NCBI RefSeq assembly: GCF_003335585.1
Contig: NZ_QBFD01000005.1
Span: 124,001-188,000, forward strand
Reading direction: 5' to 3'
DNA length: 64,000 bases
Source of the DNA: Sulfitobacter sp. DFL-14
GTDB lineage: Bacteria > Pseudomonadota > Alphaproteobacteria > Rhodobacterales > Rhodobacteraceae
Shown piece by piece: positions 35,211-57,463 of the stretch (position 1 is the first letter of the stretch; each line of letters begins with the position of its first letter). The position numbers were made by a program, and so were the translations under genes. The notes under the pieces were generated by a model. The model was not told the origin of the DNA, ran no database searches, and was given only the letters and a program-made list of their open reading frames with translations.

Positions 35211-35229
35211 GTATTACGGTATTACAGTA
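35211..35229. promoter_or_regulatory. Candidate GntR operator D
   Basis: GTATTACGGTATTACAGTAA contains two GTATTAC heptamers at 35211 and 35219, again eight bases apart. It is the plus-strand counterpart of the other sites and is placed for the flavoprotein operon. The rest of the 407-base gap to 35461 shows no gene. Confidence 0.65.
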
Positions 35230-35461
35230 AGCATGAGGCAAGAGAGTTGATTTCCGGCTTTGGAAGAAGCGGATTCCGGCTTCTGCGCCGATACCTGTCG
35301 GCGGAGAATCAAGGGAGGATTTCGGTCAATTGCAGGGGTTTCAGGCGCCCATCGGGCACGCTGCCCTCAGGGGAAACGCCCACCCGGCACGGCGTGGCCC
35401 TTGGCTGACAGAAGATTGAGCGCGGCACTGCCGCAGGTGAGATGAAAAAGGGAGAACTGGC

Positions 35462-37066: not shown

Positions 37067-37292
37067 ATCACGCTTTGACCAGCGGTCGGCCTGCCCGAAT
37101 CGGGTGGGTCCATCGCGTTCATTTTCACTGCCCTGCGGGACCTGTGGGGCAGAGTTTTCATTTCGGTAATTTTTCCAACCTTCCGTTCCGGGTATGCAGG
37201 GCATCAATGGTGGCGGGAGGGCCAGCGGCCGGATTTCGTCTTGGGACGATACCGCTCGTGGCCGGGAATTCAGGCTGTGGAGGAGCACAGAA

Positions 37293-41061: not shown

Positions 41062-42117
41062 TCAGCCGCCACGCCGTTTACGGCCCTGCATTTCGGATAG
41101 GAACATGCCCAGGGCAATGGCGACACCTTGAAAGATCATCTGCCAGGACGTTTCCAGCCCCAGGACTTTCAACGTCTGGCCAAGCTGGATCAGGAACAGG
41201 GCGGCACCGGTGACCGCGATCATCGACCCGATCCCGCCACTGATGGCCGTGCCACCCAGGACGGCAGCGGCAATCGGTGCCAGCAGATAGGGGTTGCCCA
41301 CGTCCAGTGTCGGATTGCGGATAAAGGCCGAGAGCAACACCCCGACGATGCCATAGAGGAAGGAGGCCGCGACAAAGGCACCGGCCTGGTATCGCCGGAT
41401 CTCGACCCCCGTCGCGTAGGCCGCACGCGGGTTGGCGCCCACCGCCTCGAAACGGCGGCCAAGCTGGGTCCGGCGCAGCAGGATCGTCAGGACCAGCGTC
41501 AGGGCAATGGTGATCCAGACCGTTGTATTCAGGCCCAGCCAGCGGGTGCCGCCAAAGCCTGCAAGGGCGGTGGGGACGCCGGATTCGGCTGGCAGCCCGG
41601 TCCGGTACCAAAGCGTGACCCCCGAGACGATTGCGCCGGTCGACAGGGTGACAATCAGGGCATTGAGCTTGAGCCAGGCCACCAGCAGGCCGTTGATCAG
41701 ACCGACGCACATCGCTGCCAGGATGGCCATGAATGTTCCGATGAGCACGGAGCCTTCCGCGCCGCCCGACGTTCCCAGCAGGACCGTGCTGGACAGCGTC
41801 ACGATGGCAGGCACCGACAGGTCGATGCCGCGCGCCATGAGAACCAGGGATTGGCCCATCGCCGCAATGGCAAGAAAACCCGCGAAGGGCAAGATGCTGA
41901 TGATCGAGGTTGCCGAGACACTGCGCGGCAGAAAGAGCGCGCCGATCAGCAGCAGTATCGCCAGGGCAATCCAGATGGCAGCGAATTGCATCTGGATCGA
42001 GGGCACGCGGCCTTTGCCGCCGCGTCCGCTGCGTGACGTCCGTGTGTAATGTGACAGGGCAGGCGTTGTTGAATCTGTCATTTTTCCCTCGTCGGTTTCT
42101 GGGTCCGGGGCGGGCAT
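41062..42117 (-). CDS. Ribose-type ABC transporter permease
   Basis: The product is 351 residues with eight or so hydrophobic segments and the RbsC/AraH signature AATAFVA-like NPRAAYATGVEIRRYQAGAF and SAFIRNPTLDVGNPYLLAPIAAAVLGGTAISGG. It ends the three-gene transporter operon and pairs with the permease half of the fused upstream protein. The first 40 residues are polar and cytoplasmic. Start and upstream stop overlap as ATGA. Confidence 0.9.
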   Translation of the reverse strand: MPAPDPETDEGKMTDSTTPALSHYTRTSRSGRGGKGRVPSIQMQFAAIWIALAILLLIGALFLPRSVSATSIISILPFAGFLAIAAMGQSLVLMARGIDLSVPAIVTLSSTVLLGTSGGAEGSVLIGTFMAILAAMCVGLINGLLVAWLKLNALIVTLSTGAIVSGVTLWYRTGLPAESGVPTALAGFGGTRWLGLNTTVWITIALTLVLTILLRRTQLGRRFEAVGANPRAAYATGVEIRRYQAGAFVAASFLYGIVGVLLSAFIRNPTLDVGNPYLLAPIAAAVLGGTAISGGIGSMIAVTGAALFLIQLGQTLKVLGLETSWQMIFQGVAIALGMFLSEMQGRKRRGG

Positions 42118-44663
42118 CAGGCGGTTGATCTCTTGGTGGCCCGTATGACCTTGCGGCGGCGCAGGGCCGATTGCATCAGTGTTTCGACCTCACCCAGCCC
42201 GGAGTAGAGGAAGATCGCAAAGAGCGTCATGGCACCGCTGGCGATGATCCCGAAAGAAGTGGAAAGGCCCAGAAGCGTGATGACATTGACCATCAGCGCA
42301 AAGAACAGCGCACCAAACAGGGCGCCCACGAAAGAGCCGCGCCCGCCAGAGAGCGCCGCACCGCCAAGGACGGCAGCGGCGATCGAGGTAAGCGCATAGT
42401 TTGCTCCGACCGTCGGCGCACCCACGCCAACCTCCGAGCCGAGGAAGAATCCGGCAACCGTCGCCATGAGGGCGGCAAGCATATAGGCCCTGACATGGAC
42501 ACGGTCCACGCGTACGCCGTTACGCTGCGCCGCAACCTCGCGAAATCCGACGGCCTTCGCCTCCAGTCCCGAGCGCGTGTGATGCAGCCAGAAGTCGAAG
42601 GCAATGGCTATGCCGAGCAGAACGAAGATCGAGACCGGCAGGAAGCCGATGCGTTCGCGCAAGAGGCCCGTGAACTCCTGCGAGATCATCCCGGCAGGTG
42701 TGGGCCGACCCAGCAGGGCGGCACCCTGAAGGACGGACAACATGGCGATGGTCGTGATCACCGCGTTGATATTGGCAAAGCGTACCAGGGTGCCATTGAT
42801 CAGGCCAACCACCGCGCCAATGGCAAGGCATCCCAGCACGCCGAGGATCTGCATCCCGATGGGCATCTGAAAGGCGATCATGAAGGATGCGGCAACCACC
42901 GTGAGGCTCATCATGGAGCCCACGGAGACATCGAGGCCGCGCACCAGAAGCACATGCAGCTGAGCCATGGCCACCATCGCGGCAGGCGCGGTCGCCAGCA
43001 GGATGTAGCGGATGTTGACATGGCGCAGGAACACATCTGTCTGCAGCGCAGCATAGCCGCCGACGATCAGCGTCAGTGCCGCCAGGAACACAAGCGGCAC
43101 CCACCAGATGTTCGACCCCGAAATCAGCGTGCGGAAAACGCGGGACATCATGCCCGCCGCCGTATCTCCGGCTTGTTTCGCGTCTCGCGCCCGCAGAAAG
43201 CTTGATACGATCTGTTCTTCGTTGACGTCTGGGCCGGTCAGTTCCGCCACGATACGCCCGCGCGAAAACACCAGCACCCGGTCGCAGATGCCCGCAAGCT
43301 CCTGCGCATCCGAGGAATTGATCACCAGGGTGCCATCCTCGCGCAGGTTGGTGCGGATCGCCTGATAAATGTCGTGGCGCGCGCCTGCATCAACGCCCTG
43401 GGTCGGTTCGTCGATCAGCACGGCCTTGGCATTGGTCCGGAACGACCGGGCCAGAACGACCTTTTGCTGGTTGCCGCCCGACAATCCGCTGATCGGTGTT
43501 TCCAGCGTCGCTGTAACGACTCCGAATTCATCTCGCATCGTGGCGGCGTGGTCCTGTTCCTGCCGGTTGGACAGGAGGCCGCGGCGGGCGAAGTCGCGCA
43601 GGCGGGGCAGGGTCATGTTCTTGCGCACGCCAAGATCCGGAAAAATGGATTCCCCGGCACGGTCGGCAGACAGGCAGAGCACGCCCGAACGGATCGCATG
43701 GCGCGGTTCCGTTACATCGACGGCCTTTCCCCTGCAGGTGACAGTGCCGCTGTGGCTGGCTTCAAGCCCCGCAATGGCGCGCAATGCCTCGCGCTGGCCG
43801 TTGCCTTCGGCGCCGGCAAAACCCACAATCTCACCCCGGTTGGCGACAAAACTGATGTCTTCGAATGCGTCCCCTGAAAGGCCTTCGACCACTATGACGG
43901 GATCGGGTTCGATCTGTCCCGCCTTGGCGGGATATTCGCTTTCGACATCCCGACCGATCATGCGAGAGACAAGCTCCTGTTCCGAAGTGTCATCGGTGAC
44001 GTCAAATGTGCCCTCGTGCACCCCGTCGCGCAGGATCGTGACGCGGTTGGCGAGGTCCAGAATTTCGGGCAGGCGGTGGCTGACATAGACGACGCCGGTG
44101 CCCCTTGCCGTCAGGTCGCGCACCAGCGATGTCAGATGTGCCACGCCATCGTAATCCAGCGTGGACGTCGGCTCATCCAGCAGCAGCACACGCGGATTGG
44201 ACAGGAGCGCCTTGACCACCTCGACGAACTGGCGATGTGCGGGTGTCAGATTCCCGACAGCGGTAGTTGGTGAAATGCCCAGGTTGAAGGGGGCCAGCTG
44301 TTCTTCGGCCCAGCGGACCATGCTGCCATAAGGCACGATGCCTTTCGGCGTGGCGAGAAAGAGGTTCTGCGCCACGGACAATTCGCGCACCAGGCTGTCG
44401 TCCTGATAAACGGTGGCCAGGCCATATGATATCGCCTCTCGCGGGTCGGCATGGGCGAGGTGCTTGCCGCCGATTTCGATCCGGCCGGCATTGGGTGTGA
44501 TCGCGCCGGATGCGATCTTCATCAGCGTCGACTTGCCAGAGCCGTTTTCGCCGAGGATCGCGTGCACTTCGCCCGCGTGAACATCAAAACTGAAATTGTC
44601 GAGCGCTTTCACGCCCGGATAGGATTTGGAGACGTTCTCCATCTTCAAAACGATATCAGCCAT
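42117..44663 (-). CDS. Fused ribose-type ABC ATPase and permease (848 aa)
   Basis: Residues 1-500 are an RbsA-type double ATPase: Walker A GENGSGKST near 39, a degenerate first signature NLTPAHRQFVEVVKAL, then Walker B VLLLDEPTSTLD, a second domain with GAEGNGQRE, the signature LSGGNQQKVVLARSF and VLIDEPTQGVD. From about residue 520 the chain continues as an RbsC-type permease (ISGSNIWWVPLVFLAALTLI to GLSTSFGIIASGAMTLFAIF). Usually these are separate genes. I chose the start at 44663 (MADIVLKMENVSKSYPG) because upstream codons lack homology. Confidence 0.9.
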   Translation of the reverse strand: MADIVLKMENVSKSYPGVKALDNFSFDVHAGEVHAILGENGSGKSTLMKIASGAITPNAGRIEIGGKHLAHADPREAISYGLATVYQDDSLVRELSVAQNLFLATPKGIVPYGSMVRWAEEQLAPFNLGISPTTAVGNLTPAHRQFVEVVKALLSNPRVLLLDEPTSTLDYDGVAHLTSLVRDLTARGTGVVYVSHRLPEILDLANRVTILRDGVHEGTFDVTDDTSEQELVSRMIGRDVESEYPAKAGQIEPDPVIVVEGLSGDAFEDISFVANRGEIVGFAGAEGNGQREALRAIAGLEASHSGTVTCRGKAVDVTEPRHAIRSGVLCLSADRAGESIFPDLGVRKNMTLPRLRDFARRGLLSNRQEQDHAATMRDEFGVVTATLETPISGLSGGNQQKVVLARSFRTNAKAVLIDEPTQGVDAGARHDIYQAIRTNLREDGTLVINSSDAQELAGICDRVLVFSRGRIVAELTGPDVNEEQIVSSFLRARDAKQAGDTAAGMMSRVFRTLISGSNIWWVPLVFLAALTLIVGGYAALQTDVFLRHVNIRYILLATAPAAMVAMAQLHVLLVRGLDVSVGSMMSLTVVAASFMIAFQMPIGMQILGVLGCLAIGAVVGLINGTLVRFANINAVITTIAMLSVLQGAALLGRPTPAGMISQEFTGLLRERIGFLPVSIFVLLGIAIAFDFWLHHTRSGLEAKAVGFREVAAQRNGVRVDRVHVRAYMLAALMATVAGFFLGSEVGVGAPTVGANYALTSIAAAVLGGAALSGGRGSFVGALFGALFFALMVNVITLLGLSTSFGIIASGAMTLFAIFLYSGLGEVETLMQSALRRRKVIRATKRSTA

Positions 44664-44728
44664 GCGGCGTTCTCCCCCACTCGAACGTCCGGCCATGGCA
44701 GACAGCTGCCGCCATGGCCGATGATTGC

Positions 44729-45907
44729 TTACTTGAACATCGCGCGAAGCGTGTCCGGATCGACGAGGGTCGAAACCGAGACTTCGTCGGGCAGGCTGGG
44801 ATCGCACTGGTCGACCGTTGCCTGTTTCATCGAGAAGGGCACATCCAGGTTGGCAGGGATCTCAGCGCCGCCGTGGGCCATCATGCCGGCCGTCAGCGCC
44901 AGACGCGCCTGGTAGTTCTGGCCGGAGGAGTAGAAGACCTTGAAGTTGGGGTTGCCCGCCGCCTTCATGTCGCAGAACAGGCCCTGCTCATCGGTGCGCA
45001 GGGCAACGGTGAAGTCGAGCGGCTTGTTGGCAGATTCATAGGCGCGCACGCCGCCCCGGAACCCGTCTGCGTAGTCATAGATATACCCATCAATCTTGTC
45101 GAAACGGGACAGGATTGCGGAGACCGCGGAAAAGGTGCCTTCCTGGGTCCAGTTGGTGTCTTCGGTGGCAATGATTTCGACACCGTCGAGGGTTGCGACC
45201 TCTTCCGCTGCGCAGCCCTGCCATGTGGCCGACAGCGGGTTGCCGGGTGTGCCACCCAATGCCGCGATGGCTTTTGCTTCGGGGTTGCCGGTGCGGACCG
45301 CGCGGATGAATTCTTTGCCCAGCTCGCAGATGTTTTCCGAAATGTTGGTGACATAATCTTCGCCCGGCGTGCCTGCGACGGTGCCGTTATGCAGAATGAC
45401 CGTGATCCCGGATTCGGTCGCTTCGCGGATCGAGGGGGCCAGTGCCTCGCCGTGGTCGGCAAAGGTCACGATCACATCGACGCCCTGGGCGATATAAGCG
45501 CGGAAATCCGACAGCGCCTTGGCGGCGTCACCGCGCGCCGAAGTATAGACGATCTTGCCCACCTCCGGGTAGGTCAGCGCCTGCATGATGAATTCCATCT
45601 TCGTCACCTGGCGCCAGACGTTCTCGCCAAAGCCGTCGGCATAGGCAACGGTCAGCTCTCCGCCGGTGCCGGTGTCGCATTGGTTGTCGTTCCAGCACTG
45701 GATCGCCTTGGCGCGGATTTCTTCGCTGACCGGCATTGCAGCGTGCTCAAAGGCTTCCTGGAAAACCGGGCCGACATCGGTGGTGCCAAGCCGCGAAGAC
45801 ATCATCTCTTCGGCGGATTGTGCTGCAGCAGCCATCGGCAAGCCGAGGGTCATCACGGTGAGCGCCGTCAGGCGGATGGGCCACGTCAGGCCGTTGTGTT
45901 GGGTCAT
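44729..45907 (-). CDS. Ribose-type ABC substrate-binding protein
   Basis: The product is 392 residues with a Sec signal (MTQHNGLTWPIRLTALTVMT to AAAAQS). The mature protein has the Peripla_BP_4 type I fold (VIVTFADHGEALAPSIREAT, VILHNGTVAGTPGEDYV, DGYIYDYADGFRGGVRAY). It captures a sugar-like or aromatic-sugar-like ligand for the transporter encoded next. The start at 45907 is preferred because the signal peptide begins there. Operator E lies about 145 bases before it. Confidence 0.88.
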   Translation of the reverse strand: MTQHNGLTWPIRLTALTVMTLGLPMAAAAQSAEEMMSSRLGTTDVGPVFQEAFEHAAMPVSEEIRAKAIQCWNDNQCDTGTGGELTVAYADGFGENVWRQVTKMEFIMQALTYPEVGKIVYTSARGDAAKALSDFRAYIAQGVDVIVTFADHGEALAPSIREATESGITVILHNGTVAGTPGEDYVTNISENICELGKEFIRAVRTGNPEAKAIAALGGTPGNPLSATWQGCAAEEVATLDGVEIIATEDTNWTQEGTFSAVSAILSRFDKIDGYIYDYADGFRGGVRAYESANKPLDFTVALRTDEQGLFCDMKAAGNPNFKVFYSSGQNYQARLALTAGMMAHGGAEIPANLDVPFSMKQATVDQCDPSLPDEVSVSTLVDPDTLRAMFK

Positions 45908-46048
45908 TTTAGATTCCTCTCCCTGGTAAACGGGCCGGAGGTCTCCTCCCTGGCCCATGATCGCGTCCGGCCGACATTTGGTGATGCTCCGCCGGGTCGT
46001 ATGTGTCGCCGGCTTGTACAGCAGGCGGGGTCTGTCTCTTTCACTAAC

Positions 46049-46073: not shown

Positions 46074-46203
46074 TCAACTTGTGAATTCTTGCAGCATTCC
46101 GTGATCGTCCGGATGCTTGCCGGATGCCTGAATGTGCCAACGTCGCCCCGATCGGGGGCGACGCAAGATTTCCATTTTGGGATTATTTGATTTCCCTGTG
46201 CCG

Positions 46204-46923
46204 TTACTGCGCGAGGTAACCGCCGTCGATGACAAGCTCGGCACCGGTGACAAAGCTCGCCTCATCCGACGCCAAGTACAGGCAACCATTGGCAATTTCC
46301 CGTGGCGTCCCGGCCCGGCCCATTGGCGTCATGCCGATGACGAATTCGTTGATGGCGGGGTCCTGTGCCTGGGTCAGGGGGGTGTCAATAAATCCCGGAT
46401 GAACCGAATTCACGCGAATCCCCTCTTTCACATAGGTGATTGCCGCGTTCTTGGTCATCATCACCAGCGCGCCCTTGGACGCGTGATAGGCATGGGCGCC
46501 CGCGACGGCGGCCTTTCCCCAGATCGAGGAAATGTTGATGATGGAGCCGGACTTTTCCCTTTGCATATGCGGGATCACTTCACGCATTCCGAAGAACACG
46601 CCGTCCTGGTTCACCCCGATCACCTTGCGCCAGTTCTCTGTCGAGCCGTCGGCCACACCGTCATAGACCGCAATCCCCGCGTTGTTCACGAGGCAGTCGA
46701 TTCGGCCCTGCGCCTCGACGATCTGCTTGATCGCGGTTTTCCACTGGGCCTCATCCGCCACGTCGAGCGTGATGCCGGTCACCCCGTCCGGGTAGACACC
46801 TGAGGGGTTGCTGGTGCTGCCAGCATATACGATTGCACCTTCCTCGTGAAAACGTTCGACGATGCCCAGCCCGATTCCGCGCGATGCCCCGGTCACCAGG
46901 ACAACTTTTCCATCCAGTCTCAT
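46204..46923 (-). CDS. Short-chain dehydrogenase/reductase (239 aa)
   Basis: A classical SDR with TGASRGIGLGI near residue 11, CLVNNAGIAVYDGV near 82, the catalytic Ser in INISSIWGKAAV and YHASKGALVMM near 148. The C-terminus GAELVIDGGYLAQ is typical. It is NAD(P)-dependent, with sugar- or ring-alcohol oxidation likely given the context. It is transcribed toward the transporter operon and divergently from the gene at 47139, with operator F in between. Confidence 0.9.
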   Translation of the reverse strand: MRLDGKVVLVTGASRGIGLGIVERFHEEGAIVYAGSTSNPSGVYPDGVTGITLDVADEAQWKTAIKQIVEAQGRIDCLVNNAGIAVYDGVADGSTENWRKVIGVNQDGVFFGMREVIPHMQREKSGSIINISSIWGKAAVAGAHAYHASKGALVMMTKNAAITYVKEGIRVNSVHPGFIDTPLTQAQDPAINEFVIGMTPMGRAGTPREIANGCLYLASDEASFVTGAELVIDGGYLAQ

Positions 46924-46974
46924 TTACTTCCTCCCTTGGCGCGTATCTGCGCGGTTTCGAATTTCTGCAATATA

Positions 46975-46989
46975 GTAATACCGTATTAT
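46975..46989. promoter_or_regulatory. Candidate GntR operator F
   Basis: TAATACCGTATTA (46976-46988) is a perfect palindrome with a one-base centre. It carries GTAATAC at 46975 and GTATTAT eight bases later. It sits 53 bases ahead of the SDR gene and 151 bases ahead of the gene at 47139, so it may serve both directions. Confidence 0.68.
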
Positions 46990-47138
46990 CATAAGACGTC
47001 AAAACTCTTGTCATGTTCGATTTCTGCAGAACGCAAGGGCCATGCCGCAGCGAATTTTTTCCATATTGGTCGAAACAGCCGGCTTCAGCTTTGCTGCCCG
47101 GTCGTAGTGTCGGGTCGAAAGACACAGGGAGGATCGGT

Positions 47139-48056
47139 ATGTCCGCAACGAAAGCAGGGCCGGTAGGCTGGATTGGCACCGGAAAGATGGGCGCACCGAT
47201 GGTTGCCCACCTGGCAGGTTCAGGCCAAGCCTTGCAGGTGTTCGACGCGCGGCCCGCTTCCTACGCTGCCCTGCTGACTGAGACCGTCACAGCAGCGCCA
47301 GGCATTGAGGCAATCGGGCAGAACTGCGGTGTCGTCTTTACGTCCATCCCGGATGATTCCGCCTTGATCGCCATTGTCGAAGGGCAGGGGGCCAGTGGCG
47401 GGCTGGCCCGGTCCATGGCCGCAGGTTCGATCCTTGTCGAAACCAGCACTGTCAGCCCGGAGGCTTCGCAGCAGGCCGCGCGGGCCTTGCAGGCGGCTGG
47501 CATCCGCTATGTCCGCGCGCCCGTTTCCGGCAGCACCAGCATCGCACAGGCCGGCGGTCTGACGGTGCTCGCATCGGGCGACAAATCCGCCTGGGACGAG
47601 GTCGAGACCCTTCTGGCGCAGTATTCCGCGCGGCGGTTCTGGCTGGGGGAAGGGGATGCGGCACGTTACATGAAGCTGGTCCTGAACACCCTGGTCGGGG
47701 CAACCGCCTCCGTGCTGGGTGAAGCGCTGCTGCTGGGCGAACGGGGCGGGCTGTCGCGGGCCGACATGATGGATGTGATCCTGGAAAGCGCCGTGACCTC
47801 GCCCCTGCTGAAATACAAGAAAGACACGGTTGTCGGTCTCGACACGGACCCGGCCTTTCAGCTTGATCAGATGGTAAAGGACTATTCGCTGATCATCGCT
47901 GCCGCCAGGAAAGAGAATATCGAAATGGAAGTCGCGGAGCTTGTTCTTGAGCAATACCAGACCGCCGCACAGGCCGGTCGCGCCGCGCAGGATTTCTTTG
48001 CGCTTGTCGATTGGATCGGGGATGCTGCCCACCCAAGGCAGGACAGCGCGGGCTAA
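47139..48056 (+). CDS. NAD(P)-dependent dehydrogenase, 3-hydroxyisobutyrate dehydrogenase type
   Basis: The product is 305 residues with an N-terminal Rossmann domain (GWIGTGKMGAPMVAHLAGSG), ILVETSTVSPEASQQAARAL, APVSGSTSIAQAGGLTVLASG with the substrate-binding GS motif and the catalytic Lys in YMKLVLNTLVG near residue 176. It oxidises a beta-hydroxyacid or reduces a related aldehyde acid. It heads the operon that ends with the hydroxyquinol genes. The start at 47139 follows AGGGAGGATCGGT. Confidence 0.88.
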   Translation: MSATKAGPVGWIGTGKMGAPMVAHLAGSGQALQVFDARPASYAALLTETVTAAPGIEAIGQNCGVVFTSIPDDSALIAIVEGQGASGGLARSMAAGSILVETSTVSPEASQQAARALQAAGIRYVRAPVSGSTSIAQAGGLTVLASGDKSAWDEVETLLAQYSARRFWLGEGDAARYMKLVLNTLVGATASVLGEALLLGERGGLSRADMMDVILESAVTSPLLKYKKDTVVGLDTDPAFQLDQMVKDYSLIIAAARKENIEMEVAELVLEQYQTAAQAGRAAQDFFALVDWIGDAAHPRQDSAG

Positions 48057-48091
48057 CTGGCCGCGTCCGCGCTTGAGGAGGAAGCTGCCGG

Positions 48092-49819
48092 ATGACCGAA
48101 TACGAAATGCTGCGCATCATCGACTTTCTGAACGACCTGAACGGGCCGTTCGGAACAGTTGTACCGGACAGCAGGGGCGATCCGATATTCGCGCTCACCC
48201 TGTCGCTGATGCAAGCGCATCTGACCGGGCGTGACATAACCAAAAGCGCGCTGGCGGAATCAGGCGGTGTACCCTTCGTCACGGCAATGCGCCACATCAG
48301 CCAGATGATCGACGACGGGCATATCATGCTGGATCCGCGCACCTCGACCGGGCGCAGTTTCTATGTGCGCCCCAGCGCGGAACTGATGGAACGGTTCACC
48401 ACCTATTGCCGAGGCGTGAAAGCCACCATCGGCCGGACCTTCGGCACCATTGATTCAATCGACGATGTCGACGGGTTCTACTTTGGCGGCTCCAACTTCT
48501 CCCGGGTTGTCATTCCGCCACCCCGGTTGCAAACCCATCGGGCGTCCGGCGGAAAGGAGCTGCGTTTCCTGTTTCGCAAGGACAATTACTTTGAGGCGCT
48601 GCGCAATACCTGGGCCGACCTGCGGTCGAATGTCGGGTCGATCCAGAATGTCGACCTTTTGCCGCTGCCCCATCTCTATGACCGGATCATCGAAAATGGC
48701 GGACGGCCCACGTCGGAGTTTGACGTGATCTGTGTGAACAAGCCCTGGGTCGGTGACCTGGTGAACCGCGGGCTGGTCCGCCCATTGGACGATCTGATCG
48801 GGCAGAGCCATGTTCAGCCGCTCGATTTCTCGCCAATGGTCTGGGAGTCCGCCTCCTGGCAAGGGGCGCAATATGGCGTGCCGATCTATACCACGGTTGA
48901 GCTGTTCCTGGCGCGACAGGATGTGTTCGAGCGCAGCGGCATTGCCTATCCCCGAACCTTTGACCAGGTGATCGAGGCCGGGCGGGCGCTGCAACGGCCT
49001 GACGAAGGGTTGTACGGCGTCGCATGGAACGGCGCACGGGGGATGCCGGTGGCGAACACCTTTATGGTGTTGCTGGGGTCGTGCAACTCTGCCTGCCTGA
49101 ACCTGCCGCGCCGCCGCATTCACACACCGATGCATGATCTCGTGTCCGACAAGCTGCGGGCGCAACTGTTGACCGATCAGGCGTTCGAGGTGCTCGATTA
49201 CATGCATCGTCTGAAGGAGGTGTCACACCCCGATGTCCTGGCAATGGACTGGGATCGCAGGGTTGATGCGCTGCTGACCGGAAAGGCGGTCATGGGATAT
49301 TGCTGGTCGATGCATGCTGCGCTGATGGAATACCACGTCAAATCGGTCGTTTCGCGGCGGATGCGCTATCTGGAGCAGCCCAAAGGCAGGGCCGGGATGC
49401 ATGCCAATCCTGTCGGTGGTTTCCACCTGATGATCCCCAGCAACCTTGCCGAAGACCGGGTGCAGCTCGCCTTTGATGCGATCAGCTGGATGTGTTCGCC
49501 GGAAGTGATGAAGGAACATGTGTCGGAAGGTTTCCCGGTGGCCCCGCGTTTCTCTGTCGCGGCTGACCCGGAAGCGGCGGCAAGTTCGCCGGTCATGGGT
49601 GTGGTGGACCGCTTGCTGCGCTCCAACTCCGTCTGCACCTGGTCGCGGCCGGCCGTGCCGGAGTTTCACGGGATCGAGACAATCCTGGGCGAGGAAATTC
49701 ATGCCGCCCTGCGGGGTGATGCCACCGACCGCGAGGCGCTTGAACGTGCGCAGCGGCGCATCGACGATCTGCTGCGCGTGCGCAATGTCGCGGCGGTGCA
49801 GGGCGTATCGGCTCAGTAA
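48092..49819 (+). CDS. Winged-helix regulator fused to an ABC-type solute-binding domain (575 aa)
   Basis: Residues about 25-95 form a MarR-like winged helix (TGRDITKSALAESGGVPFVTAMRHISQ, DPRTSTGRSFYVRPSAELM). From about residue 150 to 555 the chain has the fold of sugar-type extracellular solute-binding proteins (SBP_bac_1): TWADLRSNVGSIQNVDLLPL, FDVICVNKPWVGDLVNRGLV, YGVPIYTTVELFLARQDVF, FHLMIPSNLAEDRVQLAFDA. There is no signal peptide, so the protein is cytoplasmic. It is probably a ligand-responsive regulator that uses a periplasmic-binding-protein domain as sensor. No transporter of the SBP_bac_1 type is encoded nearby. Confidence 0.85.
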   Translation: MTEYEMLRIIDFLNDLNGPFGTVVPDSRGDPIFALTLSLMQAHLTGRDITKSALAESGGVPFVTAMRHISQMIDDGHIMLDPRTSTGRSFYVRPSAELMERFTTYCRGVKATIGRTFGTIDSIDDVDGFYFGGSNFSRVVIPPPRLQTHRASGGKELRFLFRKDNYFEALRNTWADLRSNVGSIQNVDLLPLPHLYDRIIENGGRPTSEFDVICVNKPWVGDLVNRGLVRPLDDLIGQSHVQPLDFSPMVWESASWQGAQYGVPIYTTVELFLARQDVFERSGIAYPRTFDQVIEAGRALQRPDEGLYGVAWNGARGMPVANTFMVLLGSCNSACLNLPRRRIHTPMHDLVSDKLRAQLLTDQAFEVLDYMHRLKEVSHPDVLAMDWDRRVDALLTGKAVMGYCWSMHAALMEYHVKSVVSRRMRYLEQPKGRAGMHANPVGGFHLMIPSNLAEDRVQLAFDAISWMCSPEVMKEHVSEGFPVAPRFSVAADPEAAASSPVMGVVDRLLRSNSVCTWSRPAVPEFHGIETILGEEIHAALRGDATDREALERAQRRIDDLLRVRNVAAVQGVSAQ

Positions 49820-49831: not shown

Positions 49832-50902
49832 ATGACGGACATGGACGATTTCGTTTTCAAAGGCATCCCGACGCGGGTGATCTTTGGTACTGGCACGCTG
49901 GCCGCAGTGGCCGAAGAAGTGGCGCGGCTGGGCGGCAAGGCGGCGCTTGTCCTGTCCACGTCCCATCAGGCAGAAGACGCCAGGCGGCTTGCCTCCGATC
50001 TTGGCGCGCGTTGCGTCGGGGTCTTTTCCGAAGCGGCCATGCACACGCCTGTTGCCATCACCGAAAAGGCGCTGGAGGCGGAAGAATCCCTTGGCGCGGA
50101 TTGCCTTGTCTCGCTTGGTGGCGGGTCCACCGTGGGGCTGGGCAAGGCGATTTCAATCCGCACCGGTCTGCCGCATCTGGCGGTGCCCACAACCTACGCA
50201 GGGTCCGAGATGACCGATATCCTCGGCGAGACAAACGACGGCGAAAAGACCACCCGCCGCGATCCCGCCATCCGGCCCGCGACGGTGATCTATGATGTCG
50301 CCCTGACGCTTGGCCTGCCGGCCGACATGACGGTCACCTCCGCGCTGAACGCCGCCGCCCACGCGGTCGAGGCGCTTTATGCCTCCGACGGCAACCCGGT
50401 GATCAGCCAGATGGCGGGCGCGGGCCTTGCCGCCCTTTTCAAAGGTGTGCCGCAGGTGGTGGCCGATCCGACAGATGCGGCGGGGCGCAGCGATGTGTTG
50501 TATGGTGCCTGGCTCTGCTCGACGGTTCTGGGTCAGGCCGAGATGGGCCTGCATCACAAGCTTTGTCATGTTCTGGGCGGTTCCTTTGACCTGCCCCATG
50601 CGCAGACCCATGCAATCTTGCTGCCCCATACGGCGGGGTTCAACGCAGCGGCGGCCCGTGTGCAGCTTGCCCCGGCGACAGCGCTTTTTGGCGAGGACCT
50701 GGGCGGCGGCCTTTGGGATTTTGCCAAGGCGGCAGGCGCGCCGCTGGCCCTGTCCGACCTGGGACTCACGGAAAAGGATCTGCCCCGCGCAGCGGATATC
50801 GCCACACGTAACACATATTCAAATCCGCGCGCGTTTGACGCCGGGGACATTACCGCATTGCTGCGGGCGGCGGTGAACGGAACCCGCCCTCGGCCCATCT
50901 GA
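49832..50902 (+). CDS. Maleylacetate reductase
   Basis: The product is 356 residues, the usual length of maleylacetate reductases and shorter than other iron alcohol dehydrogenases. It has VIFGTGTLAAVAEEV near residue 16, SLGGGSTVGLGKAISIRTG near 93, VPTTYAGSEMTDILG near 117 and the metal-site His in GLHHKLCHVLGGSFDLPHAQTHA. It reduces maleylacetate to beta-ketoadipate with NAD(P)H, the second step of hydroxyquinol breakdown. The gene follows the fusion regulator after 12 bases and precedes hydroxyquinol dioxygenase by 14 bases. Confidence 0.93.
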   Translation: MTDMDDFVFKGIPTRVIFGTGTLAAVAEEVARLGGKAALVLSTSHQAEDARRLASDLGARCVGVFSEAAMHTPVAITEKALEAEESLGADCLVSLGGGSTVGLGKAISIRTGLPHLAVPTTYAGSEMTDILGETNDGEKTTRRDPAIRPATVIYDVALTLGLPADMTVTSALNAAAHAVEALYASDGNPVISQMAGAGLAALFKGVPQVVADPTDAAGRSDVLYGAWLCSTVLGQAEMGLHHKLCHVLGGSFDLPHAQTHAILLPHTAGFNAAAARVQLAPATALFGEDLGGGLWDFAKAAGAPLALSDLGLTEKDLPRAADIATRNTYSNPRAFDAGDITALLRAAVNGTRPRPI

Positions 50903-50916: not shown

Positions 50917-51816
50917 ATGACAGAGACAGTGACAGAAAGCGGCTATTTTTCCGAAGACCAATCGGCAGAGGTCGTGATTGCCCGTAATGCCAAGGCCAAA
51001 GACGCCAGACTGGCCGAAGTGATGGCGGTACTGACCCGCCATCTGCACGCTGCCGTCAAGGAGATCGAGCCAAGCGAGGAGGAATGGTTCCAGGCCATCC
51101 AGTTCCTGACCAAAACAGGTCAGATGTGCAGCGATTGGCGGCAGGAATACATCCTGTTGTCCGACGTTCTTGGTGTGTCGATGCTGGTGGATGCCATCAA
51201 CAACCGCAAGGCCAGCGGGGCCAGCGAATCCACCGTGTTAGGCCCGTTTCACGTCGATGATGTGCCGATCATGGAAATGGGCGCGAACATCTGCCTGGAT
51301 AACAAAGGCGAGCCGATGGAGGTCAGGGGGACGGTGCGCGATTTGACAGGCGCGCCGGTCGCCGGGGTTGAACTGGATGTCTGGCAGGCCAATGATGAGG
51401 GGTTCTATGACATTCAGCAAAAGGGCCTGCAGCCCGACTTTAACCTGCGGGGGCGGTTCCGGACGGGGGCGGACGGCAGCTACAGGTTCTGGGCAGTGCG
51501 ACCGAAATACTATGCCATTCCCGATGACGGTCCGGTCGGTCAACTGCTTGTACAGTTGGGCCGCCACCCCTATCGCCCCGCCCATCTGCACTACATCCTG
51601 ACTGCCGAGGGGTTCGAGACGCTGACGACGCATATCTTTGACCCCGACGATCCCTATATTCGGTCGGATGCTGTTTTCGGTGTCAAGGAAAGCCTGATGG
51701 CCAGGTTCGAGAAGATCGACAGCCCGTCGGAAATTGCAGCAGCGCAAGGCGATGGCTGGTTCTGGCGGGTAGAGCATGATTTTGTACTGGAGCAGCAACC
51801 TGTGGGCCGCCCCTGA
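50917..51816 (+). CDS. Hydroxyquinol 1,2-dioxygenase
   Basis: The product is 299 residues. It has the N-terminal helical linker domain of catechol-type intradiol dioxygenases (LTKTGQMCSDWRQEYILLSDVLG) and the catalytic domain with the Fe(III) ligands in RPKYYAIPDDGPVG (Tyr) and HPYRPAHLHYIL (Tyr/His, His), plus the HVDDVPIMEMG stretch near 112 typical of hydroxyquinol rather than catechol enzymes. It opens 1,2,4-trihydroxybenzene to maleylacetate, which the preceding gene product then reduces. It ends the operon. Confidence 0.92.
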   Translation: MTETVTESGYFSEDQSAEVVIARNAKAKDARLAEVMAVLTRHLHAAVKEIEPSEEEWFQAIQFLTKTGQMCSDWRQEYILLSDVLGVSMLVDAINNRKASGASESTVLGPFHVDDVPIMEMGANICLDNKGEPMEVRGTVRDLTGAPVAGVELDVWQANDEGFYDIQQKGLQPDFNLRGRFRTGADGSYRFWAVRPKYYAIPDDGPVGQLLVQLGRHPYRPAHLHYILTAEGFETLTTHIFDPDDPYIRSDAVFGVKESLMARFEKIDSPSEIAAAQGDGWFWRVEHDFVLEQQPVGRP

Positions 51817-52441: not shown

Positions 52442-52482
52442 TTGACAAAACTAGTTTTGTAGTCATATAATCCATATATGAC
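52442..52482 (+). promoter_or_regulatory. arsR promoter with two palindromic operators, leaderless start
   Basis: TTGACA (52442-52447) and TATAAT (52466-52471) are perfect -35 and -10 elements with an 18-base spacer. The perfect palindrome ACAAAACTAGTTTTGT (52445-52460) fills the spacer. GTCATATA/TATATGAC (52462-52469 and 52475-52482) spans the -10 element and start codon. The ATG at 52478 is seven bases after the -10 element, so the transcript is probably leaderless. ArsR is expected to bind here. Confidence 0.75.
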
Positions 52483-52801
52483 TTTTGTATCTCAATCCGC
52501 TACCACGGCCCACGCCCTCGCCGCCCTTGGCCATGAAGCTCGGCTCGACGTCTATCGCCTGCTCGTCCGTGCGGGCAAGGAAGGTCTAGTCGTCGGGGAC
52601 ATCGCGAGCCATACGAAGTTGCCGCTCTCGACGCTCGCCCATCACTTGCGCACCCTCGTCGGGGCGCGCCTCGTCGTGCAGGAGCGGCGCGGACGCGAGG
52701 TCGTCAACCGGGCTGACTTTGCTGTCATGAACGCGGCGCTCGCCTTCCTGACCGACGAGTGCTGCCAAGGCGTCGCTCTTGTGCGGGAGGACGCTGCCTG
52801 A
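52478..52801 (+). CDS. arsR: ArsR-family metalloregulator
   Basis: The product is 107 residues. The winged helix (ALGHEARLDVYRLLVRAGKEG, DIASHTKLPLSTLAHHLRTL) is followed by a wing region and a C-terminal ECCQG motif. Adjacent cysteines near the C-terminus are the arsenite-binding site of this ArsR subgroup. It probably represses its own operon through the palindromes in its promoter. No ribosome site precedes the ATG, consistent with a leaderless message. Confidence 0.88.
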   Translation: MTFVSQSATTAHALAALGHEARLDVYRLLVRAGKEGLVVGDIASHTKLPLSTLAHHLRTLVGARLVVQERRGREVVNRADFAVMNAALAFLTDECCQGVALVREDAA

Positions 52802-52854
52802 CGTGCGTCAAACATTCTTTTGCCTATAAATAACTATATAACCGGATATATAAC

Positions 52855-53904
52855 ATGACAGATGCCACTATACGACTTACCGAACAAGGGATCGTAATCG
52901 CCCGTCGTCTATGGTCGGGTCAGCGTGTCTGGCTCGCCACCGCAGCAATTTTGGCGCTCGTTTGGGGCCTTGACCCCTCCCAAGGCCAGGAAAGTCTGTC
53001 CTTCGTCTTCGCGAACCTGCTCCAGACCGCCCCCTACCTGTTGCTCTCCATTGGCCTCGCCGCCTACGCAGGGGCAACGGGTGCCGACAATCTCATTGCT
53101 CGCGCCTTCACCGGTGCGCCAGTCGTCATGATCCTCGTCGCCGCCGCTTTTGGCGGTCTGTCGCCCTTCTGCTCCTGCGGGGTGATCCCGCTGATCGCAG
53201 CACTTCTCGCCATGGGCGTTCCGTTGTCCGCCGTCATGGCGTTCTGGCTGGCCTCCCCGGTGATCGATCCGTCGATGTTCGCGCTGACGGCGGGGGTACT
53301 CGGCTTCGAGTTTGCCATCGCCAAAACGCTCGCGGCTATCGGGCTGGGCCTGTTTGGTGGCTACGTGACGCTCATCCTCACCCGGTCGGGGGCTTTCGCG
53401 GATCCGCTGCGCGAGGGCGTGGGTAACGGCGGCTGCGGCGCGTCGGGTATCCGCAATCCCAAACCGCCTGTCTGGGCGTTCTGGCGGGATGAGGCCCGGC
53501 GCACAAAGTTCGGACGCGAAGCGTTGAAAACCTCGCTGTTCCTGTTCAAGTGGCTCTCCCTCGCCTTCGTTCTCGAAAGCCTGATGATCGCCTTTGTCCC
53601 CGCCGAATGGGTGGCGCAGGCCGTTGGCGGCGAGGGTTTCGTCTCGATCATGATCGCCACGCTGGTAGGCGTTCCGGCCTATCTCAACGGCTACGCTGCA
53701 TTGCCGCTCGTCTCCGGCTTGGTCGATCAGGGCATGGCTCCCGGTGCGGGACTCGCGTTCCTCGTCGCGGGCGGGGTGACATCGCTTCCGGCGGCTATCG
53801 CGGTATGGGCACTGGCCCGCCGCGCAGTCTTTGCGCTCTACATCGCCTTCGCGCTCACCGGGTCCATGGCGGCGGGGCTGCTGTTCCAGCTCTGGCTCGC
53901 TTGA
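52855..53904 (+). CDS. DUF318/ArsP-type permease
   Basis: The product is 349 residues with about eight membrane helices and the PF03773 signature GLSPFCSCGVIPLIAALLAMG near residue 101, with the paired cysteines of SPFCSC. Members of this family (ArsP) export methylarsenite or other trivalent organoarsenicals, or belong to ars operons with unclear function. The middle cytoplasmic stretch has GNGGCGASG. It starts 53 bases after arsR and its stop overlaps the next start. Confidence 0.82.
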   Translation: MTDATIRLTEQGIVIARRLWSGQRVWLATAAILALVWGLDPSQGQESLSFVFANLLQTAPYLLLSIGLAAYAGATGADNLIARAFTGAPVVMILVAAAFGGLSPFCSCGVIPLIAALLAMGVPLSAVMAFWLASPVIDPSMFALTAGVLGFEFAIAKTLAAIGLGLFGGYVTLILTRSGAFADPLREGVGNGGCGASGIRNPKPPVWAFWRDEARRTKFGREALKTSLFLFKWLSLAFVLESLMIAFVPAEWVAQAVGGEGFVSIMIATLVGVPAYLNGYAALPLVSGLVDQGMAPGAGLAFLVAGGVTSLPAAIAVWALARRAVFALYIAFALTGSMAAGLLFQLWLA

Positions 53905-54371
53905 TGGAGACTGCGTCCCCCGCCGGGTCGTTCCGGCACCTCCTCGTCGGCGTCGATGGGTCCGGCCCGGCCTGCCGGGCGGCGGTTGCAGCTGCGCGCC
54001 TGGCACTGACGCTCAATGCGCAGCTGACCTTTCTTGCCGTCGCGCGCGAGGTCCGGGCCTCCAAGGAGATCGAGGACTACGCAAAGCTGGAGGGCATCGA
54101 CACGCCAAGCCTGCCGCTGCTACGAAAGGAAGCCGAATTCTGTCTCGCTGCGGCGGTGATATCTGCGCGTGAGTTGGGACTGACGGGTCCGGGACGCCTC
54201 ATTCAGACCGGGGATGTGGCGCAGATGATCGCTCTCGTCTCGCGCACGCACGGAGCCGACTGCATCGTCCTCGGACGCAGCTCTCATGGGGCGGTGCGAT
54301 CACTGGTCATGGGCTCGGTCGCCAAAAAGGTAGGGAATGCCACCGATAGCGCATTGGTGTTGATTCCCTGA
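53904..54371 (+). CDS. Universal stress protein (UspA family)
   Basis: The product is 155 residues with the UspA fold: HLLVGVDGSGPACRAAVAAARLA at the start and the ATP-binding GADCIVLGRSSHGAVRSLVMGSVAKKV near residue 118 (G-X2-G-X9-G(S/T)-like). It starts inside the permease stop (TGATG), so its product is made with the permease. A Usp inside an ars operon is uncommon and may protect or regulate the exporter. The function here is inferred. Confidence 0.85.
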   Translation: METASPAGSFRHLLVGVDGSGPACRAAVAAARLALTLNAQLTFLAVAREVRASKEIEDYAKLEGIDTPSLPLLRKEAEFCLAAAVISARELGLTGPGRLIQTGDVAQMIALVSRTHGADCIVLGRSSHGAVRSLVMGSVAKKVGNATDSALVLIP

Positions 54372-54455
54372 CAGCGTAATGCGGCCAACGGTCGATTGAT
54401 CTTCCACCTCAGAAGTTGCTTGACTAAAGCTCAATGTATCAATACCTCCCGATAT

Positions 54456-54788
54456 ATGGATAAGATTCACGCTCTCGACGCCTTCGCCGCTCTCAGCCAG
54501 TCCACACGGCTCGATGTGTTCCGTTTGCTCATCAAGGCCGGGGATGCGGGCATATCGGCGGGCGACATCGGCGACACTCTCGGGGTGCGCCAGAATACGA
54601 TGTCGGCCAACCTGGGCGTCCTGGCCCGCTCCGGTCTGATTCGCAGCACGCGGGAAGGCCGAAGCATTCGCTACTTTGCCGACATGGACGGGATGCGCGG
54701 GCTGCTGGCCTTCCTGATGGAAGATTGCTGCGGTGGGCGCCCCGAGCTGTGCCAACCCGTCATCAATGAACTCGCCTGTGCCTGCTAG
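54456..54788 (+). CDS. Second ArsR-family metalloregulator
   Basis: The product is 110 residues. The winged helix (AALSQSTRLDVFRLLIKAGD, DIGDTLGVRQNTMSANLGVL) ends in EDCCGGRPELCQPVINELACAC with six cysteines, a Cys-rich arsenite-binding tail. I chose the ATG at 54456. There is TTGACT at 54418 but no clear ribosome site, so this message may also be nearly leaderless. It is followed by arsC after nine bases. Confidence 0.85.
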   Translation: MDKIHALDAFAALSQSTRLDVFRLLIKAGDAGISAGDIGDTLGVRQNTMSANLGVLARSGLIRSTREGRSIRYFADMDGMRGLLAFLMEDCCGGRPELCQPVINELACAC

Positions 54789-54797
54789 GAGGCTGTT

Positions 54798-55307
54798 ATG
54801 ACCAGAGATGCCTACAACGTCCTGTTCCTCTGCACCGGCAATTCCGCCCGGTCGATCATCGCGGAAGCGATCATGAACCGGGAGGGCATGGGTAAGTTCA
54901 AGGCCTTCTCCGCCGGATCGAAGCCTGGGACAGCACCCCATCCTTACACGCTCGACCTGCTCAAGGGTCTGAACCACGACACCGGCTTCGCGCGATCCAA
55001 GAGCTGGGACGAGTTCGCAGGTCCCGACGCGCCGCAAATGGATTTCGTGTTCACCGTCTGCGACAACGCCGCCGCCGAGGAATGCCCGTTCTGGCCGGGC
55101 CAGCCGATGACCGCCCATTGGGGCGTGCCCGATCCGGTAAAGGCCGAAGGCCCCGAGACCGCCCGGCGGTTCGCCTTCTCGGACACCTACCGGATGTTGC
55201 GCAGTCGTATCTCGATCTTCGTCAGCCTGCCCATCGGATCGCTCGACCGGATGGCGCTGCAACGCAACCTCGATGACATCGGCAAGACCACCGCCAAGGC
55301 CGACTGA
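54798..55307 (+). CDS. arsC: Arsenate reductase, thioredoxin-coupled (LMW-phosphatase type)
   Basis: The product is 169 residues with the phosphatase-like active-site loop [19 protein letters not shown] (CX5R near residue 13) and the redox Cys in [17 protein letters not shown] near 80-88. It reduces arsenate to arsenite for Acr3 export. It has a ribosome site GGAGGC before the start and is followed by acr3 after 23 bases. Confidence 0.92.
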
Positions 55308-55330
55308 TCACCAAAGACCGAAAGTCTGAC

Positions 55331-56398
55331 ATGACCGATACATCGCTTCCCGCTGCGGCGGGTCTAGGAACCTTTGAACGCTGGCTTTCCGTCTGGGTGG
55401 CGCTCGCCATCGGCGCGGGGCTGCTGCTGGGCAATCTCTTTTCGGGTCTTTTTTCCTTTCTGGCCTCGCTGGAGGTGGCCTCGGTCAACCTGCCCGTCGC
55501 TGTCCTCATCTGGGCGATGGTCTATCCGATGATGGTTGGCGTGGATTTCGGCGCGTTGCGGCAGGTCGGAGACAAGCCGAAAGGGCTGGTCGTGACGCTG
55601 GTGGTGAACTGGCTGATCAAACCCTTCACCATGGCCACGCTCGGCGTGCTGTTCTTCGAGTATGTCTTCGCGGGTCTGATCCCGCCCGACGACGCGCAGG
55701 CCTATCTCGCGGGCGTGATCCTGCTGGGGGCCGCGCCCTGCACCGCGATGGTGTTCGTCTGGTCGAACCTCACGCGCGGCGATGCGACCTACACGCTTGT
55801 GCAGGTCAGTGTGAACGACGTGATCATGGTTTTTGCCTTCGCACCCATCGTAGCCTTCTTGCTGGGCGTGACGGACATCGTCGTGCCGTGGGATACGCTG
55901 CTGCTGTCGGTCGGCCTCTACGTCCTTCTGCCTCTGCTGGCAGGGTATCTGACGCGCCGGAACCTTGTCGCGAAAGGCGGCGAACGGTCGGTCGATGCGT
56001 TTAAGTCCCGCGTGCAGCCGTTCTCGATCATCGGGCTGCTGGTGACGGTGGTGCTGCTGTTCGGGTTTAAGGGCGAGGTCATCCTCGACCGGCCGCTCGT
56101 CATCGTGCTTATCGCCGTGCCGCTGCTGATCCAGTCCTACGGCATCTTCTTCGTGGCCTATGGCGCGGCGCGCGCCTGGGGTATCCCGTTCAACGTGGCG
56201 GCTCCCTGCGCCATAATCGGCACGTCCAACTTCTTCGAACTGGCCGTCGCCGTCGCGATCAGCCTGTTCGGGCTGGGATCGGGAGCTGCCCTTGCAACGG
56301 TCGTCGGTGTCCTCGTGGAAGTGCCGGTGATGCTTTCGCTCGTCGCCTTCGCCAACAGGACGCGGCACTGGTTTCCGGCGGAAGGGGATGCGTCGTGA
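55331..56398 (+). CDS. acr3: Arsenite efflux transporter ACR3
   Basis: The product is 355 residues with about ten membrane helices and the conserved ACR3 features [20 protein letters not shown] near residue 55, [19 protein letters not shown] (essential Cys) near 137 and [18 protein letters not shown] near 296. It exports arsenite from the cytoplasm by proton-motive force. The following arsC pseudogene starts inside its stop codon. Confidence 0.94.
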
Positions 56399-56559
56399 CC
56401 GTCGTCATTCACCACAATCCCGACTGAGGCACCTCGCGCAACGTGCCAGTCGTCATCGACTACCTCAAGACCGGCTGGACCCCGCCTGCAGCTTCTGGCC
56501 CCATGGTGAAAGAGGACGGCGCGCCGTTGATCGACACAGAAGGAAACCGCGTTGGCTGA
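56395..56559 (+). pseudogene. Broken glutaredoxin-type arsenate reductase gene
   Basis: A GTG at 56395 opens TVVIHHNPD, then an in-frame TGA where the catalytic Cys should be (NPDCGTSRN in relatives), then GTSRN, VPVVIDYLKTGWT and the C-terminal VKEDGAPLIDTEGNRVG. The frame is open for 55 codons apart from that TGA. Compared with ArsC of about 140 residues, most of the middle is missing through two in-frame deletions. It cannot make a normal enzyme. TGA at a catalytic Cys recalls selenocysteine, but the deletions argue for decay. Confidence 0.75.
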
Positions 56560-56643
56560 AACTCCAAACCTTGAAGAAGCGCATTTCCACCCCATCGACA
56601 CGGATCATCTGCTGATGCCCGAACGGGCGACATATGCCCCGCG
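56552..56643 (+). pseudogene. arsH: N-terminal fragment of arsH, cut by an IS6-family element
   Basis: From the TTG at 56552, which overlaps the end of the arsC relic, the frame reads AETPNLEEAHFHPIDTDHLL and MPERATYAPR, the N-terminal arm of ArsH (an NADPH-FMN reductase that detoxifies organoarsenicals). It ends at the left end of the IS6 element, just before the LLLYGS flavodoxin motif would begin. The rest of arsH is not on the other side of the element, so the insertion went with a deletion. Confidence 0.7.
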
Positions 56644-57463
56644 CAGGTGTTGTCACGTTAACGGGCCTGAGGTTGCTGGTGCATTGTTCTGGGCGTAGGC
56701 GGTGTCGATGCAGGCATTGAAAATCAGCTACAAGCGTCACCGGTTTCCGCTGCAGATCATTGCTCATGTTGTCTGGCTCTACGCCCGGTTCAATTTGAGC
56801 CTGCGCGAGGTCGAGGAGTTGATGCTGGAACGTGGCGTGGACGTTTCGTATGAAACGACCCGGCGCTGGACCGTCAAGTTCGGCCCGCTGATCGCCCACG
56901 TTCTACGGCGACGGCAGCATCGCCCCGGCGATGTCTGGCATCTGGACGAAGTCGTCGTAAAGATCGCGAGCCGGTCTTACTGGCTCTGGCGCGCGGTCGA
57001 CCAACACGGCGTTGTTATTGGGGAAATCCTACAATCGAGGCGCAACAAGCGCGCTGCATAGCGGCTTTTGATCAAGCTGATGAAACGTTGGGGTTTCGTA
57101 CCCAAAAGGATCATTACGGATAAACTGCGATCCTATGCTGCTGCCAAGCGTGAGGTGGCTCCCGGCCTTGATCATTGGTCCCACAAGGGGCTCAATAACC
57201 GTGCAGAAAACAGCCATCTCCCTTTTCGAAAACGAGAGCGGGTGATGCAGGGTTTCCGATCGCCGGGTAGTTTACAACGCTTCGTCTCGATGCAATCTGC
57301 AACCCGTAATTCCTTCTCCGTACCAGCCCGCCGTCGTTCCGCTCTCACCATCCGCTACCATCGGTTAGAAGCATTCGAGGCGTGGAAATCCGCGGCAAAC
57401 GTCGCTTAATCAACGATCGGCATGCCAACTTGCAAGCTCGGCGAGTTAACGTGACAACACCTG
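56644..57463 (+). mobile_element. IS6-family insertion element, 820 bp
   Basis: Perfect 19-bp terminal inverted repeats CAGGTGTTGTCACGTTAAC (56644-56662) and GTTAACGTGACAACACCTG (57445-57463) bound one transposase gene. Length and gene content fit IS6. The eight-base flanks (GCCCCGCG and GCGGACGC) do not match, so there is no target duplication. This points to rearrangement across the element. Confidence 0.85.
56702..57409 (+). pseudogene. IS6-family transposase with an in-frame stop
   Basis: The frame reads SYKRHRFPLQIIAHVVWLYA, SLREVEELMLERGVDVSYET, DVWHLDEVVVKI (first catalytic Asp), SYWLWRAVDQ, then a TAG at 57059-57061 in place of a Lys codon, then LIKLMKRWGFVPKRIITDKL (second Asp) and SHKGLNNRAENSHLPFRKRE (Glu). 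All three DDE positions survive. Apart from the single TAG the gene is complete, so it is a recent nonsense mutation. Confidence 0.85.

Follow-up and report, generated by a model that had tools for sequence, protein, structure and literature searches.

The window, as the whole analysed stretch of 64,000 nucleotides (64 kb) is called here, carries a compact four-gene operon that runs from a HIBADH-like dehydrogenase gene through the gene under study to a maleylacetate reductase and a hydroxyquinol-type dioxygenase, with intergenic gaps of 35, 12 and 14 bp. By this spacing the gene under study, which encodes a predicted winged helix joined to a solute-binding domain (wHTH-SBP), is the second of the operon, and the sequence-only reading of the same DNA, which had grouped it with the hydroxyquinol genes, is borne out, the enzymes being named by their solved relatives. 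The genes of the operon and of the neighbouring minus-strand transporter are:

47139–48056, plus strand: NAD-binding dehydrogenase of HIBADH-like type, which opens the operon (start taken from relatives; the longest open reading frame begins at 47013)
48092–49819, plus strand: wHTH-SBP gene, predicted regulator of 575 aa (open reading frame call, PF01547, profile match to 5iai)
49832–50902, plus strand: maleylacetate reductase (PDB 3w5s, E 6.4e-118)
50917–51816, plus strand: hydroxyquinol-type 1,2-dioxygenase (PDB 8r2x, E 1.1e-96; 1tmx, E 3.7e-70)
46204–46923, minus strand: SDR dehydrogenase, divergent
44729–45958, minus strand: the transporter's own binding protein, Peripla_BP_4
42117–44807, minus strand: Rbs-type ATPase fused to a BPD_transp_2 permease, one 896-residue open reading frame
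41062–42117, minus strand: second BPD_transp_2 permease

The ATPase–permease fusion at 42117–44807 has similar long matches in the related loci L004–L006. Downstream of the hydroxyquinol cluster, visual inspection suggests an ars-type gene set in the region 52478–57409, its ArsR-like regulator at 52478 being supported by Pfam, and transposase-like frames lie near 56702–57409.

The wHTH-SBP gene starts with an ATG at 48092, directly preceded on its 5′ side by a ribosome-binding sequence, GAGGAGGAAG, that is rated good, and its stop codon ends at 49819 (open reading frame list and translation), which confirms the 575-residue frame of the sequence-only reading. The MarR-like N-terminus and full SBP_bac_1 domain described there are also recovered, through the predicted fold of residues 1–117 and the PF01547 and 5iai matches within residues 154–565. 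An HTH is thus followed by a solute-binding domain in one chain, arranged as follows:

48092–48442, plus strand: residues 1–117, predicted MarR-like winged helix (alignment, Pfam matches of relatives, PDB profile search, predicted structure)
48443–48550, plus strand: residues 118–153, linker with a mostly conserved YFGG motif (alignment)
48551–49786, plus strand: residues 154–565, SBP_bac_1 solute-binding domain (PF01547, phmmer to PDB, family profile)

The solute-binding domain is recognized in the window protein itself. PF01547 matches residues 204–473 with E 1.4e-17 (65.1 bits against a cut-off of 26), phmmer aligns residues 153–556 with PDB 5iai (E 2.1e-23), and the family profile reaches the same chain with E 1.9e-57. 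This best solved chain is named 'Sugar ABC transporter', and the next chains are named as trehalose/maltose and sorbitol binders. PF01547 and PF13416 are the only listings for the protein at E up to 10 (HMMER filters on), a SBP_bac_5 domain being absent from them.

The N-terminus is predicted to be a MarR-like winged helix on the combined evidence of relatives and models. A domain search for a winged helix next to PF01547, proposed in the sequence-only reading, gave a split result: PF01547 is found, and no HTH family is listed by Pfam in the window protein alone at E up to 10 (HMMER filters on), MarR_2 appearing only in relatives. With E up to 1, 23 of the 39 aligned relatives match MarR_2 (best 2.3e-4); other winged-helix models, among them IclR and TrmB, find fewer of them. 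The protein alignment took in 39 of the 54 copies extracted, and the N-terminal alignment 32 N-termini. A profile of these 32 N-termini finds the MarR protein 5eri in the PDB (E 0.0021). AlphaFold modelling of the N-terminus together with three relatives gave a best model of five with pLDDT 81.7, the other four lying between 47 and 64. This best model, in which the structure prediction suggested at the outset does show a winged helix, has helices at residues 31–44, 51–57, 62–74 and 96–117 and strands at 78–81 and 91–94, that is, the helix, helix, recognition helix, two-strand wing and long helix of the MarR superfamily topology. The predicted recognition helix 62–74 contains T64 and R67, both invariant in the 39 aligned members. 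Regulators named as, or known to be, MarR-type form most of the 50 Foldseek rows listed for the model; TcaR is the best among the rows listed and the only one to reach E 0.001 (E 8.6e-4). With VIA-align the best Z score, 10.4, belongs to archaeal AF1382, which is not a MarR protein, and many MarR proteins score a moderate 8 to 9.6. The full-length AlphaFold model, built from a four-row alignment of close relatives, has a mean pLDDT of 36.9, is unreliable beyond the N-terminus and was left out of the fold searches.

The fusion, which the sequence-only reading had presented as a feature of the hydroxyquinol operon, proved not to be peculiar to this locus. Matches at E 1e-20 occur in 75 of 394 genomes sampled from the bacterial family (96 matches, at most three candidates being scored per genome), and 89 of the 96 start at or before residue 35 and hence span both domains; these are spread over 69 of the 394 genomes, the window's own included. 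Samples that likewise include this genome gave 8 matching genomes among 385 of the class (E 1e-50; three of the 8 are 1.4 Mb in size) and 6 among 398 of the phylum, one of these 6 lying outside the class. Relatives at E 1e-20 are also present in 45 plasmid records. A tree was built from 52 fused and 5 SBP-only domains, two copies with internal stops (L059 and L065) being left out; one branch parts the two sets (support 93/74, 94% of bootstrap trees), and a single fusion event tentatively fits this topology; the nearest SBP-only row is the L090 protein, the program warning of long branches. At L090 (about 6700–8000) the SBP-only protein, which has a leader-like start and is 33% identical to the fused domain, adjoins UgpA/E permeases and offers a lead to the ligand class. 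The three 1.4-Mb genomes of the class (L087, L088 and L089), whose loci have 35–37% GC, keep the fused gene together with a 23.9-bit palindrome, near matches to a Rbs-type importer and an E1-like dehydrogenase.

A Rbs-type permease lies near 48 of the 54 copies (47 within 9.5 kb by the neighbourhood count, plus the window by Pfam), and both a Rbs-type permease and a Rbs-type binding protein near 47 (46 plus the window); the short copy L001 is the window itself, which has both. A HIBADH-like match is found near 27 copies, a hydroxyquinol-type dioxygenase near 9 and UgpA/E near 1. The gene and the importer operon are arranged head to head in many copies, which is a common setting for local regulators. 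Each of the 28 genomes in which the L040 binding protein is found at E 1e-60 also has a match to the fused protein (in G159 a fragment only), and the control sought, a locus that has this transporter and lacks the fused gene, did not turn up among them. The single copy of the 54 beside Ugp-type permeases with their own SBP is L041 (Aminobacter sp. MSH1 pUSP2), where the transporter and the hydroxyquinol genes each have palindromes nearby.

A sugar-, polyol- or cyclitol-like solute is to be expected as ligand, since it is Rbs-type importers, and not ring cleavage, that the family accompanies. The same regulator might instead recognize an intermediate of the hydroxyquinol pathway and so sense the aromatic branch, as the sequence-only reading had suggested, and the operon shared with maleylacetate reductase and hydroxyquinol-type dioxygenase, like the 9 copies near such a dioxygenase, would suit this. 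It is nevertheless unlikely, and the earlier suggestion is weakened, given that 45 of the 54 copies have no such dioxygenase in the stretch examined (6 of the 54 stretches being under 5 kb on one side), that 48 have a Rbs-type permease nearby and that the best solved chains are named for sugar, trehalose/maltose and sorbitol. It is equally improbable that the SBP domain has lost ligand binding and persists only as a dimerisation or scaffold module. Against this view, the domain is full length in all 39 aligned members and holds 22 of their 25 invariant columns, more than would be expected of a scaffold.

A candidate DNA target was sought in the 400 bp before the gene, or before the HIBADH-like gene where this directly precedes it. 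Fifty of the 54 upstream regions were kept, four being near-duplicates or too short; L059 and L065, with internal stops, were among those kept. When every 4-bp dyad with spacers of 0–12 was counted and compared with dinucleotide shuffles, TCCA-N3-TGGA came first of 3,328 dyads, occurring in 21 of 50 regions against 0.36 expected. A symmetric 19-bp matrix from the 46 regions outside the window's own group has the consensus ATTATCCAAATTGGATAAT. With each neighbourhood group held out in turn, 41 of the 50 regions score above the 99% shuffle level and 46 above the 95% level; the grouping is our own, and because of their common ancestry the regions of one group, above all those of D (20 of 50), do not count as independent. 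By held-out group the 99% level is exceeded in 1/4 (A), 2/2 (B), 5/7 (C), 19/20 (D), 8/9 (E) and 6/8 (X), the one region of group A being that of the window; below it fall L004, L005, L006, L045, L047, L053, L059, L041 and L080. Two of these carry sites elsewhere: L053 has a 15.8-bit site about 200 bases before its RbsB gene, and in L041 there are sites scoring 19.7 bits, placed between the HIBADH-like and YciI genes, and 14.3 bits, placed before the transporter operon. Held-out sites of at least 14 bits number 70 in 20,000 bp of upstream sequence against 37 in 858,675 bp elsewhere, about 81 times denser (groups B–E and X, group A left out).

Of 11 loci outside the training set, among which five (L083–L085, L101 and L102) have gene orders of the trained kinds, 9 carry a site above the 99% null level ahead of the gene. 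L086 and L096 lack one in that place and show sites just upstream of their SDR gene, of 19 to 25 bits in L086 (95% level of whole-locus shuffles 20.4) and of 16 to 23 bits in L096 (95% level 15.5); L086 also has one 22.8-bit site inside the gene itself. In some relatives, such as L087–L089, the start codon has a predicted site no more than about 60 bases away, a position that would suit repression of the gene's own expression. What is new here is this predicted operator of the wHTH-SBP family, TCCA-N3-TGGA, as read from the upstream sequences. In the window, the candidate sites, a second palindrome and a second regulator gene are:

47056–47074, no strand: TTTTTCCATATTGGTCGAA, predicted operator, placed where the SDR and HIBADH-like genes diverge (12.8 bits, matrix without its own group)
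46167–46185, no strand: GATTTCCATTTTGGGATTA, a second and tentative operator in the interval that separates the SDR gene from the transporter operon (marginal: 8.5 bits, shuffle p 0.075)
46976–46988, no strand: TAATACCGTATTA, attributed to the GntR regulator rather than the wHTH-SBP protein
31593–32288, plus strand: GntR/FCD regulator, likely reader of TAATAC-N-GTATTA (motif places and domain matches)

The site at 47056–47074 is the best-scoring place of the 64-kb window (shuffle p 0.012) and weaker than most sites of the family; a place at 47339, inside the HIBADH-like coding sequence, equals it to one decimal. Its block, aligned in three close relatives, scores 12.0, 10.8 and 4.6 bits (the last in L006), and the copies of 46167–46185 in three relatives score 13.9, 7.7 and 3.1 bits. 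Two intergenic regions had been singled out as binding regions in the sequence-only reading: 46924–47138 indeed contains the predicted site, and 48057–48091 contains none, the best score between the two genes being −5.9 bits.

The palindrome TAATAC-N-GTATTA at 46976 was first taken as the wHTH-SBP operator and was rejected, as it recurs at other promoters, including one beside the GntR gene in L005. It is also found at 31251, 31473, 35114, 35212 and 46051/46059, and among the loci then scanned it is confined to the close group, at promoters that include that of the GntR/FCD gene. Because it recurs across the window, stands beside the L005 GntR gene and is limited to the close group, it was assigned to the GntR/FCD regulator, with the help of the GTnnnAC operator rule. 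Two of its places overlap predicted minus-strand promoters; the promoter consensus scan gave three minus-strand hits and was not used to choose between activation and repression. Two regulators, wHTH-SBP and GntR/FCD, thus probably meet at 46924–47138, and the second layer of control proposed in the sequence-only reading is probably present, in that the GntR/FCD regulator of 31593–32288 has its own motif at the same promoter. The region 30252–38678 encodes a FMO/Baeyer–Villiger-like monooxygenase (35462), a lactonase-like protein of the metallo-beta-lactamase fold (30252), an Fe-dependent alcohol dehydrogenase and an aldehyde dehydrogenase; its promoters have the GntR-type palindrome in common with the hydroxyquinol cluster, which hints at one pathway via a cyclic ketone.

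That TCCA-N3-TGGA itself belongs to another regulator encoded or acting at these loci is quite unlikely. The second motif at the same promoter, better assigned to GntR, indicates that several factors may act there, and the locus with the transporter and without the fused gene that would have separated the two was not found. Against this, the neighbouring genes vary between groups and the fused gene is common to the loci (by selection), and five SBP-only control loci contain a single site above 14 bits in 58,505 bases, a 16.4-bit place in L090 that lies away from the SBP gene.

Domain order and a structured N-terminus argue against a signal peptide in the wHTH-SBP protein, which is probably cytoplasmic; hydropathy over the first 45 residues gave no distinction between the fused and the secreted proteins. 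In the alignment the SBP domain comes after about 150 residues that make up the conserved DNA-binding domain and linker. Among the SBP-only relatives, four of five (L090–L093) have a leader-like start shortly before the SBP match, and UgpA/E-type permeases adjoin all five. None of the 85 genome matches to PF00528, the permease type that goes with SBP_bac_1, falls inside the 64-kb window, the nearest beginning 386 bases past its end, which agrees with the lack of such permeases nearby already remarked from the sequence. An exported binding protein with an odd N-terminal extension, as implied by the label 'extracellular solute-binding protein' that 25 of the 30 listed plasmid records carry, is hardly credible in view of the predicted MarR-like winged helix, the absence of cysteine from the first 45 residues and the presence of MalF/MalG-type permeases (by similarity to those of L041) near only 1 of the 54 copies.

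The computed features (both domains and their fusion, a conserved family, a common palindrome with its place, and the neighbourhood) point with good probability to a cytoplasmic one-component transcription regulator whose winged helix binds the palindrome of its own cluster and whose captured SBP_bac_1 domain senses a sugar- or polyol-like solute; for this protein we infer DNA binding, dimerisation, cytoplasmic location, ligand class and ligand-driven switching. The MarR-like winged helix, probably dimeric, would bind TCC(A/G)-N3-(C/T)GGA with A/T-rich flanks in promoters of its own cluster, and the palindromic form of the predicted site fits dimer binding. The lobes of the SBP_bac_1 domain would be expected to close on the solute, and this closure would change DNA binding and set the expression of importer and breakdown genes. 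Of the cytoplasmic sensor-regulator of the hydroxyquinol operon envisaged from the sequence, the regulator with its two domains and its probable location stand, and the sensing of an aromatic intermediate is weakened.

As to origin, we hold as an evenly balanced proposition that a MarR-like winged helix on a single occasion took up an exported SBP_bac_1 protein, founding a regulator family that extends to streamlined genomes of 1.4 Mb and to a second class within the phylum. In such a family the sensor and the importer of one cluster would read the same or a related solute through unrelated types of binding protein, one acting inside the cell and one outside. Two-domain copies of this probable regulator occur in 69 of the 394 genomes sampled from the bacterial family, and most of the plasmid records listed (25 of 30) name it as an exported transport protein. 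The predicted operator would let its targets be read from sequence, and the sensor suggests a natural design by which binding proteins become cytoplasmic biosensors. The clusters may also be a hint that a sugar- or cyclitol-like solute is converted to hydroxyquinol by a route not yet described; identifying the ligand would help to uncover it. No publication on a winged-helix SBP_bac_1 regulator family was found in the literature searched, most subscription journals being outside its coverage.

Comparison with known systems sets the family apart on several counts. SgrR is a regulator that combines an HTH with SBP_bac_5, and the SgrR and DsvR proteins of E. coli and Vibrio cholerae likewise unite an N-terminal HTH and a solute-binding domain in one chain and set the precedent for the design proposed here. 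SgrR_N (PF12793) is not found at the wHTH-SBP gene in a six-frame search of the genome at E 0.001, which matches two places on another contig (C25); the control search found matches in E. coli and B. subtilis. According to a preprint (PMC13060122), DsvR carries SBP_bac5, and the authors propose for it a binding box that occurs before the dsvR gene as well; the wHTH-SBP family carries SBP_bac_1. Unlike SgrR and DsvR, wHTH-SBP proteins have Rbs-type importers and catabolic genes as neighbours. By analogy, the wHTH-SBP protein may work like SgrR, though it matches neither SgrR_N (at E 0.001) nor SBP_bac_5 (at E up to 10) and would form a separate variant.

The N-terminus shares its winged-helix topology and fold with the MarR family. 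Classic MarR proteins bind their ligand within the winged-helix dimer; the wHTH-SBP protein, by contrast, joins a winged helix of about 120 residues to a sensor of about 410. Exported SBP_bac_1 binders (PDB 5iai, 1eu8 and 4rya) match it over nearly the full length of the domain, a DNA-binding domain taking the place of their leader, and, unlike in SBP_bac_1 importer systems, the importer beside it in the window is Rbs-type with its own Peripla_BP_4 protein. The folds of periplasmic binding proteins are reused as cytoplasmic sensors in LacI, LysR and GntR–SBP fusion regulators, which differ from wHTH-SBP in using other binding-protein classes or other DNA-binding domains.
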